Of a stretch of 64,000 bases of DNA, positions 3,888 through 62,537 are shown in pieces. The notes beneath the pieces were generated by a model. It saw only the letters and a list, made by a program, of their open reading frames with translations. It searched no databases and was not told where the DNA came from. Position 1 is the first letter of the stretch. Every line of letters starts with the position of its first letter. This DNA is from Phytoactinopolyspora halotolerans (GTDB lineage: Bacteria; Actinomycetota; Actinomycetes; Jiangellales; Jiangellaceae). A program made the translations under genes and the position numbers. The DNA is taken from the NCBI RefSeq assembly GCF_010550675.1, contig NZ_JAAGOA010000001.1, positions 62,001 through 126,000 on the forward strand, in the 5' to 3' direction.

Positions 3888-3982
3888 ACTCAACTCGATG
3901 GCCGCTGGCGCGACGGCGTGATGCGGGCGGCGCCGGTGGCTCCTCGGGCCGATAGGATCGGGGACGACCATCCGACGTCACG

Positions 3983-4150
3983 TCAGGAACACCGGTGCGG
4001 GCGTAACCACGTCCAAGGCCGGGGCCGTCCCGCGACTGTGACCGGGGAGCCGGTCCTTAGGTGAGCCACTGGGCCTCGTTGGCCTGGGAAGGCTGAGGGC
4101 CGGCGTCGATCCGGGAGCCAGGAGACTGACTGGCGTCGTCCACCGATCCG
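3983..4150 (+). promoter_or_regulatory. Cobalamin riboswitch 1 (cobN)
   Basis: Adenosylcobalamin-type aptamer in the leader of cobN. Visible pieces are a CGGTGCGGGCGTAACC segment in place of the more usual GGTGCGAATCC, the CCCGCGACTGTGACCGG core strand, GAGCCACTGG, CTGGGAAGGC, and the B12 box GAGCCAGGAGACTGACTGGC at 4115-4134. It ends about 30 bases before the ATG, with the GAGAGAGGA ribosome site at 4167-4175 in between, so control is probably of translation start, with cobN reduced when B12 is plentiful. Its sequence is clearly different from the other two copies in the window. Confidence 0.9.
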
Positions 4151-9900: not shown

Positions 9901-10119
9901 CCGGTACAGTGGTGCCTGCCGTGGTGCACGGGAAGCCGGTGTGAAACCGGAGCGGCCCTCGCCACTGTGATCGGGAAGTCCCCGGCCGTTCCCCTGCAAG
10001 GGGAGTCACTGGGCAGCGCACGCGCCGCCTGGGAAGGCAGGCCGGACGACGTACCCGTCAGCCAGGAGACCGGCCACGGCACTGCAAGCTGCGATTCCAC
10101 GAGGTGATGGAAGGCGGTC
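9901..10119 (+). promoter_or_regulatory. Cobalamin riboswitch 2 (cobG operon), 219-bp repeat copy 1
   Basis: Adenosylcobalamin aptamer in the leader of cobG-cobH-cobIJ. Visible segments are GGAAGCCGGTGTGAAACCGG, GCCACTGTGATCGGGAAGTC, GAGTCACTGGGCAGC, CTGGGAAGGC and the B12 box TCAGCCAGGAGACCGGCC near 10058-10075. The stretch 9901-10119, aptamer plus expression platform plus ribosome site (GGAAGG), is base-for-base identical to 22050-22268; the bases on either side differ. It is expected to lower expression of the operon when cobalamin is abundant. Confidence 0.95.
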
Positions 10120-18325: not shown

Positions 18326-18337
18326 ACACCGCCCTAC

Positions 18338-18394
18338 CCCATGATCATGAACACTTACCGTGCTATGTGAACGGTAAGTGTTCATGATCATGGG
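18338..18394. repeat. Palindromic intergenic element, copy A
   Basis: A perfect 24-bp inverted repeat (arms 18338-18361 and 18371-18394, core ATGATCATGAACACTTACCG) with a 9-base loop GCTATGTGA, between the convergent ends of cbiD and cobM. It can serve as a two-way terminator. The same element recurs at 29576-29630 in the opposite orientation, loop included, with two base changes. Confidence 0.85.
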
Positions 18395-20559: not shown

Positions 20560-22119
20560 ATGGCGCACGCGCTCCCCCGACTGGTGATCGCTGCGCCGGC
20601 ATCCGGCCAGGGCAAGACCACGGTCGCATCCGGGCTGATGGCCGCGCTGCGAGACCGCGGCCTGGAGGTCTCCGGTCACAAGGTCGGGCCGGACTACATC
20701 GATCCGAGCTACCACGCACTGGCCACCAGCCGCCCTCCCCGGAACCTCGATCCGCACCTGCAGGGCGAGGAGCGCATCGTTCCGCTGCTGCTGCACGGGG
20801 CGGGCGCCGCTCCTGGCCGCCGGTCCGCGGACGTCGCCGTCATCGAAGGCGTCATGGGCCTGTTCGACGGGGCGCTGGGCACCGACGGCTTCGCGTCCAC
20901 CGCCCACGTGGCCAGGCTCACCCGCACGCCGGTCGTGCTGGTCGTCGACGCGAGTGCCGCCAGCCGCAGCGTCGCCGCGGTAGTCCACGGATTCGCCACC
21001 TTCGACCCGGACGTCACGCTGGCCGGTGTCATCCTGAACAAGGTCGGCACCGAACGGCACGCGGCGGAGATCACCGCCGCGCTGCGGACCACCGGCGTTC
21101 CGGTGCTGGGGGTCCTGCGCCGGTCGCCGGGCATCGAGACACCAAGCCGGCACCTCGGTCTGATCCCGGCCGGCGAACGCGGTCGGCAAGCGGCGGAGAT
21201 GCTCGGCCGGCTCCGGGCATGGATCACCGAAGGTGTGGATCTGGACGCCGTCATCCGGGCCGCCCGCACCGCTCCGGCACTACACGCGGAGCCGTGGGAT
21301 CCGGCTCGGGCTCTCGCCTCACCGGATCCGGTTGCTCTCTCCTCACCGGATCCGGTTCCTCTCGTCCGGAAAGATCTGGAGGCCGTCCGTGACGTCGACG
21401 GACCAGCCGGTGCGGCAACCGTCGTACCGCACAGGGCGGGGCGGGCGGTGGTCGCGATGGCGGCCGGGCAGGCGTTCACCTTCCGGTACACCGAGAACGT
21501 CGAACTGCTCCAGGCCGCAGGTGCGGACGTCGTGGACATCGACCCGCTGACCGAGGCCGCGCTTCCCGACGGGTGTTCGGGGCTGTACTTCGGCGGCGGC
21601 TTCCCGGAAGTGCACGCCGAGCCGCTGGCCTCGAACGACCCGCTGCGCCGCGCCGTCGCCGCCAGTGCCGGGCGGCTGCCGATCGTCGCCGAGTGCGCCG
21701 GCCTGACCTACCTCTGCCGCGAACTCGACGGACAGCCCATGACCGGCGTGCTACAGGCGTCCGCCCGGATGACGGAGCGGCGCACGCTGGGCTACCGCAC
21801 GGCGGCGGCCGCAGGCGACAACGTCCTCGCCCCGTCCGGTGCGGCCGTCACCGGGCACGAGTTCCATCGCACCCAGGTGACGCCACGCCACGGGCGTCCG
21901 GCCGCGTGGGCGTGGGGCGGCGACCACGAGGGCTTCGCCGGTCCGCTCCTGCACGCCTCGTACCTGCACACACATTGGGCGGGCCACCCGCAGCTGGCCC
22001 GCCGGTTCGCCGCGGCCGCCACCCGCACTCTGCGGGACACCGGCTCGCACCGGTACAGTGGTGCCTGCCGTGGTGCACGGGAAGCCGGTGTGAAACCGGA
22101 GCGGCCCTCGCCACTGTGA
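20560..22119 (+). CDS. cobB: Cobyrinic/hydrogenobyrinic acid a,c-diamide synthase CobB
   Basis: A 519-residue glutamine amidotransferase that amidates the a and c side chains using ATP and glutamine. The P-loop APASGQGKTTVAS opens the N-terminal ATP domain, and AECAGLTYL carries the nucleophilic cysteine of the C-terminal glutaminase domain. Between them are two tandem eight-residue repeats (SPDPVAL/SPDPVPL). ATG 20560 follows AGGAAGGAGG. Oddly, the last 22 codons (22051-22116) and the stop lie inside cobalamin riboswitch 3, so the C-terminal RYSGACRGAREAGVKPERPSPL-type tail is encoded by aptamer sequence and is unlikely to be ancestral. Confidence 0.93.
   Translation: MAHALPRLVIAAPASGQGKTTVASGLMAALRDRGLEVSGHKVGPDYIDPSYHALATSRPPRNLDPHLQGEERIVPLLLHGAGAAPGRRSADVAVIEGVMGLFDGALGTDGFASTAHVARLTRTPVVLVVDASAASRSVAAVVHGFATFDPDVTLAGVILNKVGTERHAAEITAALRTTGVPVLGVLRRSPGIETPSRHLGLIPAGERGRQAAEMLGRLRAWITEGVDLDAVIRAARTAPALHAEPWDPARALASPDPVALSSPDPVPLVRKDLEAVRDVDGPAGAATVVPHRAGRAVVAMAAGQAFTFRYTENVELLQAAGADVVDIDPLTEAALPDGCSGLYFGGGFPEVHAEPLASNDPLRRAVAASAGRLPIVAECAGLTYLCRELDGQPMTGVLQASARMTERRTLGYRTAAAAGDNVLAPSGAAVTGHEFHRTQVTPRHGRPAAWAWGGDHEGFAGPLLHASYLHTHWAGHPQLARRFAAAATRTLRDTGSHRYSGACRGAREAGVKPERPSPL
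21317..21364 (+). repeat. 24-bp tandem duplication within cobB
   Basis: Two copies of a 24-bp unit beginning CCTCACCGGATCCGGTT, differing at few bases, in frame in the linker between the ATPase and glutaminase domains. It adds eight residues and does not break the gene. Confidence 0.7.
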
Positions 22120-22268
22120 TCGGGAAGTCCCCGGCCGTTCCCCTGCAAGGGGAGTCACTGGGCAGCGCACGCGCCGCCTGGGAAGGCAGGCCGGACGACG
22201 TACCCGTCAGCCAGGAGACCGGCCACGGCACTGCAAGCTGCGATTCCACGAGGTGATGGAAGGCGGTC
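22050..22268 (+). promoter_or_regulatory. Cobalamin riboswitch 3 (transporter operon), 219-bp repeat copy 2
   Basis: Identical at all 219 bases to 9901-10119, including aptamer, B12 box and the GGAAGG ribosome site, and followed within five bases by the ATG of the first BtuF-like gene. The 5' 70 bases overlap the cobB coding sequence. It should shut down corrinoid uptake when cobalamin is ample; but ribosomes finishing cobB will run through the first part of the aptamer, so folding here is exposed to translation in a way copy 2 is not. Confidence 0.95.
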
Positions 22269-22272
22269 TTCA

Positions 22273-23412
22273 ATGACCACACCTGCGCATACCCAGGCGC
22301 GTCCGCAACGTTCCGCTCGATCCGGCCACAGCGCCGACTCCCCCTCATCGCCGAGGTCCATGCGGCGCGGTGCTGCCCTCGCCGGTACCGTGGCGCTGGC
22401 CACGCTTGCCGCCTGCGGGAACGCCGCGACCGACGACGAGGCGACGACCGCCGCAGACGCAACGCCCACCGGAGCGGCGACGGCGAGCGGCGACTCCAGC
22501 CCGGCCGGGACGTCGGACGCCACGTCAACCGCGTCCGGGCCGGTGATCATCGACAACTGCGGCCTGCAGGTCACCGTCGACGCGCCTCCACAACGCGCGG
22601 TGACCATGAACCAGTCCGCCACCGAGGTGATGCTCGCGCTCGGGCTCGAGGACCGGATGGCCGGCACCGCCTACCTCGACGATGCGGTCCTGCCACAGTT
22701 CGCCGACGCCTACGCGACCGTCCCGGTGCTGAGCGAGGCGTATCCATCGCAGGAGGCGCTACTCGACGCAGAGCCGGACGCGGTCTACGGCGCCTACCCG
22801 AGCGCGTTCCAACCTGACGCCGCCGGCGATCGGGCTGAACTGCACGAGCTGGGCGTCTCCACCTACCTGTCGCCCGCCGCCTGCCCGGACAAGGCGCCGG
22901 ACGAACCGCTGGAGATCGAGACGGTCTGGCAAGAGATCCAGGACATCGGTGCGATCTTCGGTGCCACCGACCAAGCGGCCGCGCTGGTCGAGCAGCAGCG
23001 TTCCGACCTCGCGGAGGCGGTCGCCGCGGCGGACGACATGTCCTCCACCACGGTCATGTGGTGGGACGGCGGGACGGACGCGCCCAGTGTGGGAGCGTGC
23101 TGCGGCGCACCCGGGATGATCATGAACGCCGCCGGTCTGCAGAACGTCTTCGCCGACATCGAGGGCAACTGGGCCGACGTCAGCTGGGAGCAGGTCGCCG
23201 AGCGCGACCCCGACGTGATCGTCCTGGTCGACGCGGAGTGGAGCACCGCGGAGGAGAAACGGGACACCATCGAGTCCACGCCCGGCGCCCGTGAGCTTCC
23301 GGCCGTCGCCGACGGCCGGTTCGTCGAGGTGCCCTTCTCCGCGACCACACCGGGCGTGCGCAACGTCCGTGCTGTGGCAGACCTGATCACCGGGGTGGAG
23401 GGTCTGCAGTGA
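22273..23412 (+). CDS. BtuF-like ABC substrate-binding lipoprotein 1
   Basis: A 379-residue periplasmic-binding-protein-like lipoprotein of the class III (BtuF/FecB) fold. The signal peptide ends in LATLAACG with lipidated Cys48; a Thr/Ala/Asp-rich spacer follows, then the binding domain from IDNCGLQVTVDAPPQRAVT. It is the first gene after riboswitch 3 and overlaps a paralogue by 4 bases, followed by permease and ATPase genes, so it most likely captures cobalamin or another corrinoid. Both paralogues carry VGACCGAPGMI, an adjacent cysteine pair not usual in BtuF. An internal Met30 could be an alternative start, but the ribosome site favours 22273. Confidence 0.88.
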   Translation: MTTPAHTQARPQRSARSGHSADSPSSPRSMRRGAALAGTVALATLAACGNAATDDEATTAADATPTGAATASGDSSPAGTSDATSTASGPVIIDNCGLQVTVDAPPQRAVTMNQSATEVMLALGLEDRMAGTAYLDDAVLPQFADAYATVPVLSEAYPSQEALLDAEPDAVYGAYPSAFQPDAAGDRAELHELGVSTYLSPAACPDKAPDEPLEIETVWQEIQDIGAIFGATDQAAALVEQQRSDLAEAVAAADDMSSTTVMWWDGGTDAPSVGACCGAPGMIMNAAGLQNVFADIEGNWADVSWEQVAERDPDVIVLVDAEWSTAEEKRDTIESTPGARELPAVADGRFVEVPFSATTPGVRNVRAVADLITGVEGLQ

Positions 23413-24488
23413 GTGACCGACCCCACACGTCAGGCCACCGCGCGACCTTCCCCGGACTCACCGCGTTGGGGCTGATCACGGCGCTGTCCGTGGCCGGATG
23501 CGGTTCCGCGGGCGACGACGCCGGCTCCCGCACGAAGGACGCGTCCGCAGACGGCGGCGGGCAGCCGGCCTCAGATCCGGTCGGCGCCGACGAATGGCCG
23601 CTGACCATCGACAACTGCGGCATCGAGGTCACCCTCCACGAACCGCCGCAGCGCGTCGTGACCCTGAACAAGCCGGCGACGGAGATTCTGCTGGCGCTGG
23701 GTCTGCGCGACCGGGTGGCGGCAGTGGCCGGTGCGCCGGACGACACGGTCGCCGCCGAGGTGGCTGACGATTTCGCCGCCGTCGACGTCCTGGTGGAGAA
23801 GGACTACCCGAGCTTCGAAGCGTTGGTCGACACCGAGCCCGACTTCGTCTACGCCGCCTACCCCAGCGCGTTCCGCGATGACGGCGTCGGCAGCCGGGAG
23901 ACCTTCGCCGATCTGGGTGTCCCGACCTACCTATCCGAAGGTCGCTGTGAGAACCGGGATGAGCACGAGCCGATCTCCGTCGAGGACATCTGGTCCGAGA
24001 TCACCGAGATCGGCCGCATCTTCGGCGTCGGCGACGAGGCCGACCGACTCGTGGCCGACCAGCGCGAGCAGCTCGACCAGACGCTGGCGTCGCTGGACGG
24101 GCTGCCGGCCCGGACCGTCTACTGGTGGGACATGCGCACCGACACGCCGTTCGTCGGCGCCTGCTGCGGTGCACCCGGCATGATCATCGACGCGCTCGGC
24201 TTCCAGAACATCTTCGACGACCTTCCCGGCCATTGGGCGGACGCGAACTGGGAGCAGGTGGTCGAGCGGGATCCGGACATGATCGTGATCGCTGACTTCG
24301 GCGACGGCGACGCCGCCGAGAAGCTCGAGTTCATCACCTCTGACCCGACGCTCAGCCAACTCCGCGCGGTGCGGAACGACGCCCTGGTGACGCTGCCGTT
24401 CGCGATGACGACGCCCGGAATCCAGACCGTCGACGCCATCGAGACCCTGGCCCAAGCCGCCGCCGAGGCAGGTGAGGAGGGTGAGTAA
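23409..24488 (+). CDS. BtuF-like ABC substrate-binding lipoprotein 2
   Basis: A 359-residue paralogue of the gene before it, with lipobox SVAGCG (Cys31), the same IDNCGIEVTLHEPPQRVVTLN entry to the binding domain, YPSFEALVDTEPDFVYAAYPSAF-like segments shared with its neighbour, and the same VGACCGAPGMI motif. The GTG start overlaps the upstream stop by 4 bases. The pair clearly arose by tandem duplication long ago. They may bind different corrinoids or cobinamide versus cobalamin; this is inference from context. Confidence 0.88.
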   Translation: MSDRPHTSGHRATFPGLTALGLITALSVAGCGSAGDDAGSRTKDASADGGGQPASDPVGADEWPLTIDNCGIEVTLHEPPQRVVTLNKPATEILLALGLRDRVAAVAGAPDDTVAAEVADDFAAVDVLVEKDYPSFEALVDTEPDFVYAAYPSAFRDDGVGSRETFADLGVPTYLSEGRCENRDEHEPISVEDIWSEITEIGRIFGVGDEADRLVADQREQLDQTLASLDGLPARTVYWWDMRTDTPFVGACCGAPGMIIDALGFQNIFDDLPGHWADANWEQVVERDPDMIVIADFGDGDAAEKLEFITSDPTLSQLRAVRNDALVTLPFAMTTPGIQTVDAIETLAQAAAEAGEEGE

Positions 24489-26480: not shown

Positions 26481-27430
26481 GCCGGGAGATCGTGCTGGTC
26501 GGGCGAGCACTCGGGGCGCCGTCTGCCGAGCGGGCCCTCGGAGACCTGGCGAGCAGGCTGGCGGAACGCCTGAACGCACAGCTACACCTAGACGTACGGA
26601 TAGACACCGCCATGCTCGATCACGGCGAGCGCTCGCTGCACGACGCCCTCGATGGCTGCCTCGACTCAGGCGCTGACCACGTGCTGGTGGTGCCGGTGCA
26701 GATCCCTCGCGACCGTTATCTGGAGACGTGGACCGCGAAGGCCATCGCCCATTGGCGCGAGCGGGGGGCGGCACGGGTGGCCGGCGCCCGCGGCGCCGTC
26801 CCCGACGTCCGGATCGCTGCTCCCGTCAGCCAGACGGCCGAGCTGGTGCAGGCGTTGTGCGCGGTGGTGGACGGCCCGAGCCGGGCGGTCACTGAGTCTC
26901 CGGAGTCGTTCCGCAGTCCGAGCTGGTCCGATCTCGGCGAGCACCGCCATCATGTGCTCGTCTGCCGCGGTCCGCGCTGCTCGTCGCACGGCAGTCCGGC
27001 GGTGGCCGACGCGCTCGGCGCCTGCCTGCGGGACGGTCCGGTGGGATACGACGACGTCCTGGTGACGAACACCGGCTGCCTGGTGCCGTGCAATCTCGGG
27101 CCGATCGTCGTCGTTCAGCCCGACGACGTCTGGTACACGTCCGTCGACGCCGACGCCGTCCGGCGCATCGTCGACGACCACCTGGCCGGCGGCCGCGTCG
27201 TCGAAGATCTGTGTACGCCTCGAAGCCGCCGTTCCGCACCGCACGAGACACCTGTCGAGGAGCACCACGCTTCCGTGGAGCCACCGGGGCAGCGGCACCA
27301 AGCCTCCATGCGGCCGCCCGAACAACACCAAGCCTCCACGGTGCCAACAGGGCAGCGGCACCAAGCCTCCACGGTGCCGCCCGAACAACACCATGCTTCC
27401 ATGATGTCGACCCCCCAGGAGAACGCATGA
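26477..27430 (+). CDS. CbiX-like / [2Fe-2S] ferredoxin fusion with His-rich repeat tail
   Basis: A 317-residue three-part protein. Residues 1-135 resemble one half of a CbiX-type chelatase, but the usual GHGS/T histidine loop is replaced by VGRALGAPS, so the chelatase site looks lost. Residues about 155-240 are a thioredoxin-fold [2Fe-2S] ferredoxin with cysteines in VCRGPRC and TGCLVPC. The last 50 residues are a histidine-rich repeat (HQAS..P..Q units, seven His), possibly for cobalt or nickel. ATGA overlaps on both sides place it between BtuD and ChlID. It could store or hand on cobalt, or feed electrons to CobG; neither is shown. Confidence 0.75.
   Translation: MSREIVLVGRALGAPSAERALGDLASRLAERLNAQLHLDVRIDTAMLDHGERSLHDALDGCLDSGADHVLVVPVQIPRDRYLETWTAKAIAHWRERGAARVAGARGAVPDVRIAAPVSQTAELVQALCAVVDGPSRAVTESPESFRSPSWSDLGEHRHHVLVCRGPRCSSHGSPAVADALGACLRDGPVGYDDVLVTNTGCLVPCNLGPIVVVQPDDVWYTSVDADAVRRIVDDHLAGGRVVEDLCTPRSRRSAPHETPVEEHHASVEPPGQRHQASMRPPEQHQASTVPTGQRHQASTVPPEQHHASMMSTPQENA
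27263..27403 (+). repeat. 63-bp coding repeat, His-rich
   Basis: Alternating 33- and 30-base units (27263-27295, 27296-27325, 27326-27358, 27359-27388, then a partial one), each starting CACCA(A/C/T)GC(C/T)TCC. The higher-order period is 63 bases and the frame is kept throughout, so the repeat is selected or at least tolerated at the protein level. Confidence 0.85.
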
Positions 27431-29649
27431 GCTCCCGGTTTCCGTTCACGGCCGTCGTCGGCATGGAGGACCTGCGCCTGGCGCTGATCCTCTCCGCGGT
27501 CTCACCCTCCACCGGCGGAGTGCTGGTTCGAGGTGAGAAAGGCACCGCCAAGTCGACCATGGTGCGCGCGCTCGCGGGTCTGCTGCCGCCGGTTGACGTC
27601 GTAGCCGGCTGCCGGTTCTCGTGCGCTCCGAAGAACCCGGATCCGGACTGCCCGGACGGGCCGCACACAGACGCCGACGACGCGCTCAGCCGTCCGGCCC
27701 GGCTCGTCGAGCTGCCCGTCGGGGCGTCGGAGGACCGGGTGCTCGGCTCCATCCACCTGGAACGGGCGTTGTCGGACGGCGTGACCGCCTACGAGCCCGG
27801 GCTGCTGGCCGCCGCCCACCGCGGCATCCTGTACGTGGACGAGGTGAACCTCCTCCACGACCATCTGGTGGATGCGTTGCTGGACGCGGCGGCCATGGGC
27901 ACGGTGACGGTCGAGCGGGAGCATGTCTCCGTCTCGCACGCGTCGCGGTTCGTCATGGTCGGCACCATGAACCCCGAGGAAGGCGAGCTGCGGCCACAGC
28001 TGCTCGACCGGTTCGGACTCACCGTGGAGGTGACCGCGAGCCGGGATCCGGCGGTCCGGGCCGACGTCGTCCGCTCCCGGCTCGCCTACGAGGCGGACCC
28101 CGCCGGTTTCGCCGCACAGTACGCCGACAGCGAGCGTCGGCTGTCCGCCGAGATCGCGGCGGCGCGGAACCGGCTCGGCGACGTAGTCCTCACCGACGCG
28201 GCACTCCAGCAGATCACCGAGGTCTGCGCCGCGTTCGAGGTCGACGGGATGCGCGCGGACCTGATCACTGCGCAGACGGCGATCGCACACGCGGCCTGGT
28301 CCGGGCGGACGATGGTCGAGACCGAGGACGTCCGCGCCGCGGCCCGGCTGGCGCTTCCGCACCGCCGGCGGCGGAACCCGTTCGACGCTCCCGGGGTCGA
28401 CGAGGAGGAGCTGGAACAGGTGCTGCGGGACACCGCCCCCGACGACGGTCCCGGGCCGGACGGTCCGGAGCCCGGTGGTCGAGAGCCGGACGATCCCGGG
28501 CCGGACGGTCGAGGGCCAGAGGATCCCCGACCCGACGATCCCGGACCCAACGATCCGGGCCCGGGTGGCGGACCGGACGCGGGCCCGGGTGGGCCGCCCG
28601 ACGGGGAGCCCGGTTCCGGGCCGGGCGACGACGCCGCGGCGACCCGCGCGGCTGCCACCACCTCCTCCGGTGCCGGCAGCGAGGAGGACACGTCCCCGAC
28701 CGGCGGACGAGCGGGCAACGGCGACATCCAGGGCGCCGGCTCCCCGTACCAGGCACGGTTGCTCACCGTCGCCGGGCAGGGCGCGGGCGCCCAGGGGCGT
28801 CGGTCCAAAGCGATCACCGGCAACGGCCGGACGATCGGAGCGCGACATCCGCAGGTGGGCGAGTCCGGAAGCCCGCATCTGGTAGCCACGTTGCTGGCCG
28901 CCGCACCTCACCAGCGGCACCGCCAGGATACAGACCACGCTCCCTCGCGCCTGGCAGACCACGACGCGCCGGCGATCACGGACGATCCGCCGCCGTGCAG
29001 GCGCCGCCCGAGGGTCCGGCTGCGCCACGAGGACCTGCGGCTCGCGGTCCGTGAAGGGCGCGAAGGCAACCTGGTGCTGTTCTGCGTCGACGCATCCGGC
29101 TCCATGGGGGCACGGCAGCGGATGCGCGAGGTGAAGGCGGGGATCCTGTCCCTGCTCCTCGATGCCTACCAGCGCCGGGACAAGGTCGGTCTGGTCACCT
29201 TCCGCGCAGGCGATGCCGAGCTGGCCCTACCGCCCACGTCCAGCGTGGAGACGGCCGCCGCCCGGCTGGAATCGCTGCCGACCGGTGGACGTACCCCGCT
29301 GGCGGAAGGGCTGGCTGAGACGGCGCGCGTCGTTGCTGTGGAGGCGGTGCGGGATCCGCGTCGGCGGCCGCTGGTGGTGGTCGTCACCGACGGGCGGGCT
29401 ACTGCCGGCGCTGATGCCGTGGCGCGTTCGCGCACCGCAGCGGCGTCGCTCGCCCGCGAGTTGTATCGGAGGCGGGGAACGGCCGTCGTGGTGGACTGCG
29501 AGACCGGGTTCGTCCGGCTGGGACTGGCCGAATCGCTCGCTGCCCACCTCAACGCCCAGCACCTACCCGACCTTTCCATGATCATGAACACTAACCGTTC
29601 ACATAGCACGGGAAGTGTTCATGATCATCGGGTGAAGGGAGCAGCGTAA
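27427..29649 (+). CDS. Fused ChlI/ChlD-type chelatase AAA+ and VWA protein
   Basis: A 740-residue protein. Residues 1-330 are a ChlI/BchI-like AAA+ ATPase (Walker A GEKGTAKST at 36-44, Walker B ILYVDEVN, a cysteine-rich SCAPKNPDPDC insert). Residues about 338-402 are a Pro/Asp/Gly-rich linker. Residues about 545-725 are a VWA domain with MIDAS DASGSMG starting at Asp555. It supplies both activities that CobS and CobT give CobN, so it is the likely ATPase partner for cobalt insertion; true magnesium chelation is unlikely as no ChlH-type context is present. The final 24 residues are encoded by palindromic element copy B and are probably not ancestral. Confidence 0.9.
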   Translation: MSSRFPFTAVVGMEDLRLALILSAVSPSTGGVLVRGEKGTAKSTMVRALAGLLPPVDVVAGCRFSCAPKNPDPDCPDGPHTDADDALSRPARLVELPVGASEDRVLGSIHLERALSDGVTAYEPGLLAAAHRGILYVDEVNLLHDHLVDALLDAAAMGTVTVEREHVSVSHASRFVMVGTMNPEEGELRPQLLDRFGLTVEVTASRDPAVRADVVRSRLAYEADPAGFAAQYADSERRLSAEIAAARNRLGDVVLTDAALQQITEVCAAFEVDGMRADLITAQTAIAHAAWSGRTMVETEDVRAAARLALPHRRRRNPFDAPGVDEEELEQVLRDTAPDDGPGPDGPEPGGREPDDPGPDGRGPEDPRPDDPGPNDPGPGGGPDAGPGGPPDGEPGSGPGDDAAATRAAATTSSGAGSEEDTSPTGGRAGNGDIQGAGSPYQARLLTVAGQGAGAQGRRSKAITGNGRTIGARHPQVGESGSPHLVATLLAAAPHQRHRQDTDHAPSRLADHDAPAITDDPPPCRRRPRVRLRHEDLRLAVREGREGNLVLFCVDASGSMGARQRMREVKAGILSLLLDAYQRRDKVGLVTFRAGDAELALPPTSSVETAAARLESLPTGGRTPLAEGLAETARVVAVEAVRDPRRRPLVVVVTDGRATAGADAVARSRTAAASLARELYRRRGTAVVVDCETGFVRLGLAESLAAHLNAQHLPDLSMIMNTNRSHSTGSVHDHRVKGAA
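29576..29630. repeat. Palindromic intergenic element, copy B
   Basis: Inverted repeat with arms at 29578-29598 and 29608-29628 (19 of 21 pairs) and loop TCACATAGC, the reverse complement of the copy A loop. The element is thus copy A turned round, with two changes. It lies inside the 3' end of the ChlID gene, upstream of the stop codon and just before cobO. Confidence 0.85.
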
Positions 29650-62381: not shown

Positions 62382-62393
62382 CACGCGCCCCGG

Positions 62394-62489
62394 CCTAAAT
62401 GATCATGTGAAGTGGGTTTTCTCGTGCCTCAACAGGTCTGCAGACATGGTAGAGCACGAGAAGACCTACCAAACATGATCATTTAGGCG
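62394..62489. repeat. Long imperfect palindrome (element C)
   Basis: Outer arms CCTAAATGATCATGT (62395-62409) and complement (62474-62488); inner arms TTCTCGTGC (62420-62428) and complement (62455-62463); TCTGCAGA at the centre. 96 bases in all, between the ABC permease and the beta-propeller gene. It shares the ATGATCATG core with elements A and B and probably ends transcription. Confidence 0.7.
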
Positions 62490-62537
62490 GGGTGTCGGGG
62501 GTGGCAACCGAAATCGGGGGGAAGGCGTCGAAGTGAT

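Follow-up and report, generated by a model that had tools for sequence, protein, structure and literature searches.

The end of the cobB reading frame lies inside a B12 riboswitch, and this overlap very probably arose as an evolutionary by-product where two neighbours abut: a cassette behind cobB that would have its own RNA start, and that would have become identical to a second cassette in the same genome by gene conversion. The basis consists of the overlap itself, the gene order, a private CobB tail, conserved motifs and identical cassette pairs, all observed at the level of sequence, and from these we infer promoter activity, the RNA start, the switching mechanism and gene conversion. Coordinates refer to the window, the 64-kb stretch of DNA that was analysed.

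The cobB frame and the cassette behind it

20560–22119, + strand: cobB, cobyrinic/hydrogenobyrinic acid a,c-diamide synthase (NCBIfam PRK01077; Pfam CbiA and GATase_3)
22051–22116, + strand: CobB tail, 22 codons (residues 498–519) in the 219-nt repeat, without counterpart in the relatives compared
22050–22268, + strand: cassette leading the btuF-like operon, with putative -10 promoter, riboswitch and Shine-Dalgarno sequence, an exact 219-nt repeat of 9901–10119
9901–10119, + strand: identical cassette upstream of cobG (exact repeat and RF00174 match)
22054–22241, + strand: cobalamin riboswitch aptamer (RF00174, 78.1 bits, cut-off 31.5)
22054–22059, + strand: putative -10 hexamer TACAGT, inside the cobB tail (TANNNT conservation)
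22066–22073, + strand: 5' strand of P1, TGCCGTGG (sequence and Rfam alignment); the RNA start is predicted about here
22106–22110, + strand: L5 CCTCG, proposed half of a kissing loop (16-mer with L5 in 12/12 family copies)
22244–22263, + strand: expression-platform hairpin TTCCA-CGAGGTGA-TGGAA plus GG (18-mer with L13 in 11/12 family copies; minimum-energy fold)
22273–23412, + strand: btuF-like, the first gene for a substrate-binding protein in the operon downstream (Pfam Peripla_BP_2)

The cobB product matches the CobB model PRK01077 at 478 bits (cut-off 254) over residues 6–473 of 519 and profile positions 2–420 of 420, a full-length match from which the frame can be taken as correct; a bifunctional CobBC model scores higher (646.7) yet falls under its own cut-off of 950. 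The first stop of this frame, the TGA at 22117–22119, is situated 66 nt inside the third of three RF00174 matches over the cut-off in the window (3917–4148, 9905–10092 and 22054–22241), exactly as the preliminary description had placed it. That description assigned the last 22 CobB residues to the 5' half of the aptamer, a count that holds for the 219-nt repeat; the Rfam match proper contains 21 residues and the stop codon, and 17 residues are at or beyond the start of P1. From the end of the conserved part of CobB up to the cassette, no stop codon occurs in any of the three frames, and across the btuF leader the three frames close at 22091, 22117 and 22254, so that an ending within the leader is expected once the proper stop is missing.

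The TACAGT hexamer stands 6 nt upstream of P1 and 8 nt upstream of its CCGTGG, and L5 is separated from the cobB stop codon by 6 nt. L13 (CGAGG, 22249–22253) is complementary to L5, and in the minimum-energy fold the 3' arm of the platform hairpin contains the GGAA of a Shine-Dalgarno-like GGAAGG. This complementarity, together with a predicted hairpin over the Shine-Dalgarno sequence, agrees with a kissing-loop riboswitch of the translational OFF type. The gene behind the other copy is identified as cobG by TIGR02435 (247.8 bits, cut-off 234.8). Downstream of cobB, 22273–24488 holds two substrate-binding protein genes in tandem, whose best NCBIfam match is an F420-0 transporter family under its cut-off; the assignment of B12 as substrate therefore rests mainly on the riboswitch.

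In the window species, as in six relatives, a cassette of putative promoter, B12 riboswitch and Shine-Dalgarno sequence occupies the site downstream of cobB. The short stretch before it offers the cobB frame no in-frame stop, such that the frame crosses the putative -10 and then 54 nt of aptamer (22066–22119) and closes at the TGA within the core CACTGTGA. The proper cobB stop may have been lost by deletion, substitution or conversion. Cassette RNA would begin near 22066, and most btuF mRNA would therefore lack the cobB start and hence cobB ribosomes, with B12 presumably sensed independently of cobB translation through L5–L13 kissing and occlusion of the Shine-Dalgarno sequence. With cobB and the cassette directly adjoining, some transcripts may run on from cobB into the cassette.

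Elsewhere in the window, palindromic repeats with ATGATCAT cores occur at 18336–18394 and 29576–29633, and also at 62389–62492, with a similar stretch in locus L012; they may represent a terminator or some dispersed element. At 27256–27381, two 63-nt tandem repeats, 79% alike, lie inside an ORF that ends at 27430.

CobB ends in relatives and a putative promoter

The family set comprised 22 genomes, ten of which gave a CobB match: the window genome (G000) and its relatives G001, G010, G011, G015 and G017–G021. Inspection of the cobB 3' end in nine of these (G011 left out) revealed the order cobB, B12 riboswitch, substrate-binding protein (btuF) gene at seven loci (G000, G001 and G017–G021), and no B12 riboswitch behind cobB at the other two, in G010 and G015. 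By coordinates, the distance from the CobB stop to the RF00174 match is 31 nt in G001, 55 nt in G017, 79 nt in G019 and 155 nt in G020, while in G018, where an assembly gap leaves only the 3' part of the riboswitch visible, CobB stops about 75 nt short of where the cassette becomes visible. The CobB stop of G021, a TAG, opens both the RF00174 match and the hexamer TAGAGT within CGGTAGAGT, and shares its reading frame with the TAC in the CGGTACAGT of the window. The G021 stop codon (locus L056) thus doubles as the first half of the riboswitch's putative -10 hexamer. The window genome is alone in sending a reading frame into the aptamer RNA, since none of the six relatives compared does so.

An alignment of relatives' CobB C-termini, which the preliminary description had suggested, recovered no common tail among six sequences (G018 left out), and an AlphaFold model bearing on the tail, built from 6 sequences, was poor (mean pLDDT 44.6). 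As far as could be compared, the tail is private to the window species and bears no sign of selection. A wider survey of the best 80 of 477 CobB relatives, run with a family-specific riboswitch profile that may miss riboswitches elsewhere, placed a riboswitch directly behind cobB at five loci, all from this family (L065, partial because of a gap, L066, L067, L068 and L071).

The start of the aptamer match is marked by a conserved hexamer. TANNNT is present there in 12/12 family copies (10 distinct sequences from six genomes, G018 excluded), 7–10 nt upstream of the CCGTGG of P1; for the G020 cobG copy, where the script gave an earlier overlapping hexamer, the spacing of 8 nt was read separately. 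Outside the family we surveyed 100 actinomycete B12-riboswitch loci, which derive from 51 genomes and so are not independent; they are the highest-listed matches covering model positions 1–189, the short G129, G157 and G046 and those past the hundredth having been left out. Within the 12 nt scanned at the start of the aptamer, 61/100 of these loci have TANNNT and the remaining 39 lack it, against 0–4 of 100 for each of ten control windows placed upstream. A same-strand coding-like ORF, called by a codon-position GC rule and not by annotation, ends either inside the match or at most 500 nt ahead of it at 53/100 loci, and the hexamer is found at 39 of these 53 and at 22 of the other 47.

A -35 element matching at least 4 of 6 positions accompanies 14 of the 61 hexamer loci, compared with 1 of 61 in a control 60 nt further upstream. 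For the window copies a scan for a -35 yielded no convincing candidate (best match 2 of 6), and the bases upstream of copies 2 (9905–10092) and 3 (22054–22241) differ. According to PMC4365011, RNA of Streptomyces coelicolor metE starts 382 nt upstream, with the riboswitch predicted at 382–155, and PMC4603805 places RNA starts of Burkholderia cenocepacia cobalamin riboswitches 8–14 nt before the annotated RNA. The conserved hexamer, taken with these mapped starts, makes a dedicated RNA start near 22066 likely, with its putative promoter inside the cobB tail.

These observations bear directly on the proposal of the preliminary description that B12 sensing may depend on cobB translation, which is weakened by a -10-like box shared by every family copy and most outside loci and is left only for read-through RNA. 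They point to a dedicated promoter inside the cobB tail. The description had itself named a promoter between cobB and the aptamer, carrying all transport mRNA, as counting against its idea of feedback between synthesis and uptake, and such a link is unlikely. In its most specific form, this alternative holds that a ribosome terminating at TGA 22117–22119 masks L5 and blocks the kissing loop on read-through btuF mRNA. Were this the case, CobB synthesis would keep the uptake transporter on, with B12 failing to shut off the read-through mRNA, and the leader would be a translation-gated riboswitch reading a gene for an enzyme in the B12 pathway. The geometry is permissive, as a ribosome's footprint is large enough that one halted at the cobB stop, 6 nt past L5, would cover that loop; L5/L13 complementarity is conserved, and cobB adjoins the cassette without a gap. 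In Mycobacterium tuberculosis, moreover, translation of uORFs in B12-riboswitch leaders alters output, as described in PMC11260477. However, masking of L5 requires read-through RNA from cobB, the -10-like box would yield RNA without the cobB start, and no relative compared has a frame reaching the aptamer RNA, leaving this alternative very improbable.

Identical cassettes and the origin of the overlap

The riboswitches of the cobG and btuF leaders match exactly across 219 nt in G000 and 225 nt in G017 (L058), and between these two genomes the cassettes are only 83.8% identical. In both, the identical stretch begins just upstream of TANNNT and reaches as far as the Shine-Dalgarno region, short of the start codon. 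Assembly gaps fall inside both copies in G018 (L061), where the 87 nt that can be read 3' of the gaps appear the same in both when compared by eye. The pattern expected of gene conversion, with copies identical within a genome and diverged between genomes at both sites, is thus present in G000 and G017; it is absent from the other four cobG/btuF pairs measured (78.8–85.5% identity, longest exact stretches 24–35 nt) and so does not extend to each relative. Gene conversion between two older riboswitches is most likely what made the 219 nt match the cobG leader, and the recurrence suggests repeated conversion of riboswitch cassettes within this family. As to direction, the G000 copies are closer to the btuF copy of G001 (91.6%) than to its cobG copy (83.3%), a relation that lends no support to cobG as the donor; a cassette tree, mostly unresolved with 1/8 inner branches starred, is too weak to decide. 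Among 28 genomes outside the family with two or more fetched copies, a single one (G098) has a pair more than 90% alike, so that high pair identity is not general. Among the titles and abstract openings listed by literature searches, none dealt with paired B12 riboswitches becoming identical within a genome.

Overlap of the kind seen at cobB is uncommon. Of the 53 outside loci with a same-strand ORF, only two have that ORF ending inside the riboswitch match: a P-type ATPase-like frame (a label from reading the sequence) enters it by 15 nt in G084, and an EamA gene (Pfam) by 79 nt in G098. Among the titles and abstract openings listed by literature searches, there was no matching case of a riboswitch overlapping an upstream gene. 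The G098 cassettes (L279, 5879–6121 and 16937–17179) are 11 kb apart with 2 mismatches in 243 aligned nt, and their shared stretch includes TTGCAG-18-TAGGGT, whose first element matches 3 of 6 for a -35. When the G098 EamA protein was compared with five genus homologues (45–59% identical to the query, one of them a paralogue in G098), the query match reached residue 372 of 411 for four homologues and residue 385 for the fifth. GESRA is the C-terminus of four of these proteins, and the cassette is absent from all five loci. On this indirect evidence the G098 cassette may have replaced the native end of the EamA gene, a case that fits the by-product view of the cobB overlap. G098 resembles the cobB locus in that an upstream frame enters an aptamer match and the cassette has a near-identical twin and a -10-like box; it differs in gene, genome and family, and in that its tail may stem from a copied-in cassette.

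The G098 example lends some plausibility to a fresh insertion, in which a 219-bp copy of the cobG riboswitch landed behind cobB and took its stop, as the preliminary description had supposed. The left edge of the exact repeat is also the entry point of the CobB tail, and G098 seemingly has a duplicated cassette in place of a gene end. We set this origin aside as highly improbable, because in six relatives the corresponding site is also occupied by a riboswitch (visible in G018 for its 3' part only) and G017 and G018 have their own species-specific matching pairs, which makes a new insertion unnecessary. Of the earlier suggestion that the tail is a by-product of such an insertion, the by-product part stands, given that no other frame compared enters the aptamer RNA; the insertion part is not supported, with a riboswitch at 7/9 loci and identical copies that look like gene conversion. 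An assembly or sequencing artefact, in which one copy of the repeat was written over the other or the cobB stop is masked by an indel, is likewise highly improbable: the draft assembly has 65 contigs, identical repeats in such assemblies can be spurious and the G018 gaps fall inside both copies, but a small indel would not hide a stop where no frame contains one, and an identical pair recurs in G017 with matching visible parts in G018.

Relation to known systems

If the overlap is a by-product of packing, it illustrates how a compact genome can harbour a regulatory RNA and a putative promoter within the coding part of an adjacent gene for no apparent reason, and it counsels caution against assigning a function to every overlap. 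The paired cassettes, which in this family seem to have been homogenised within single genomes on more than one occasion, bear on how matched switches are kept within a regulon. Further papers, PMC12810186 and PMC12713380, reportedly concern M. tuberculosis riboswitches that have small upstream ORFs, and cobamides.

The window copy is like other translational OFF members of the cobalamin riboswitch family RF00174 in its aptamer score, L5/L13 complementarity, predicted Shine-Dalgarno hairpin and place before corrinoid genes; it differs in that its putative promoter and 5' half form the 3' end of an upstream gene. PMC11260477 describes a kissing loop and translational OFF switching for the M. 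tuberculosis B12 riboswitch, and the metE uORF there is likewise a reading frame over a B12 riboswitch in an actinobacterium. In that species, however, the short uORFs of metE and ppe2 start within the leader, whereas here a frame of 519 codons enters from outside, its start at 20560 lying about 1.5 kb upstream. The ppe2 leader uses an AUGA stop-start, while the cobB stop ends at 22119, 153 nt before the next ATG at 22273.
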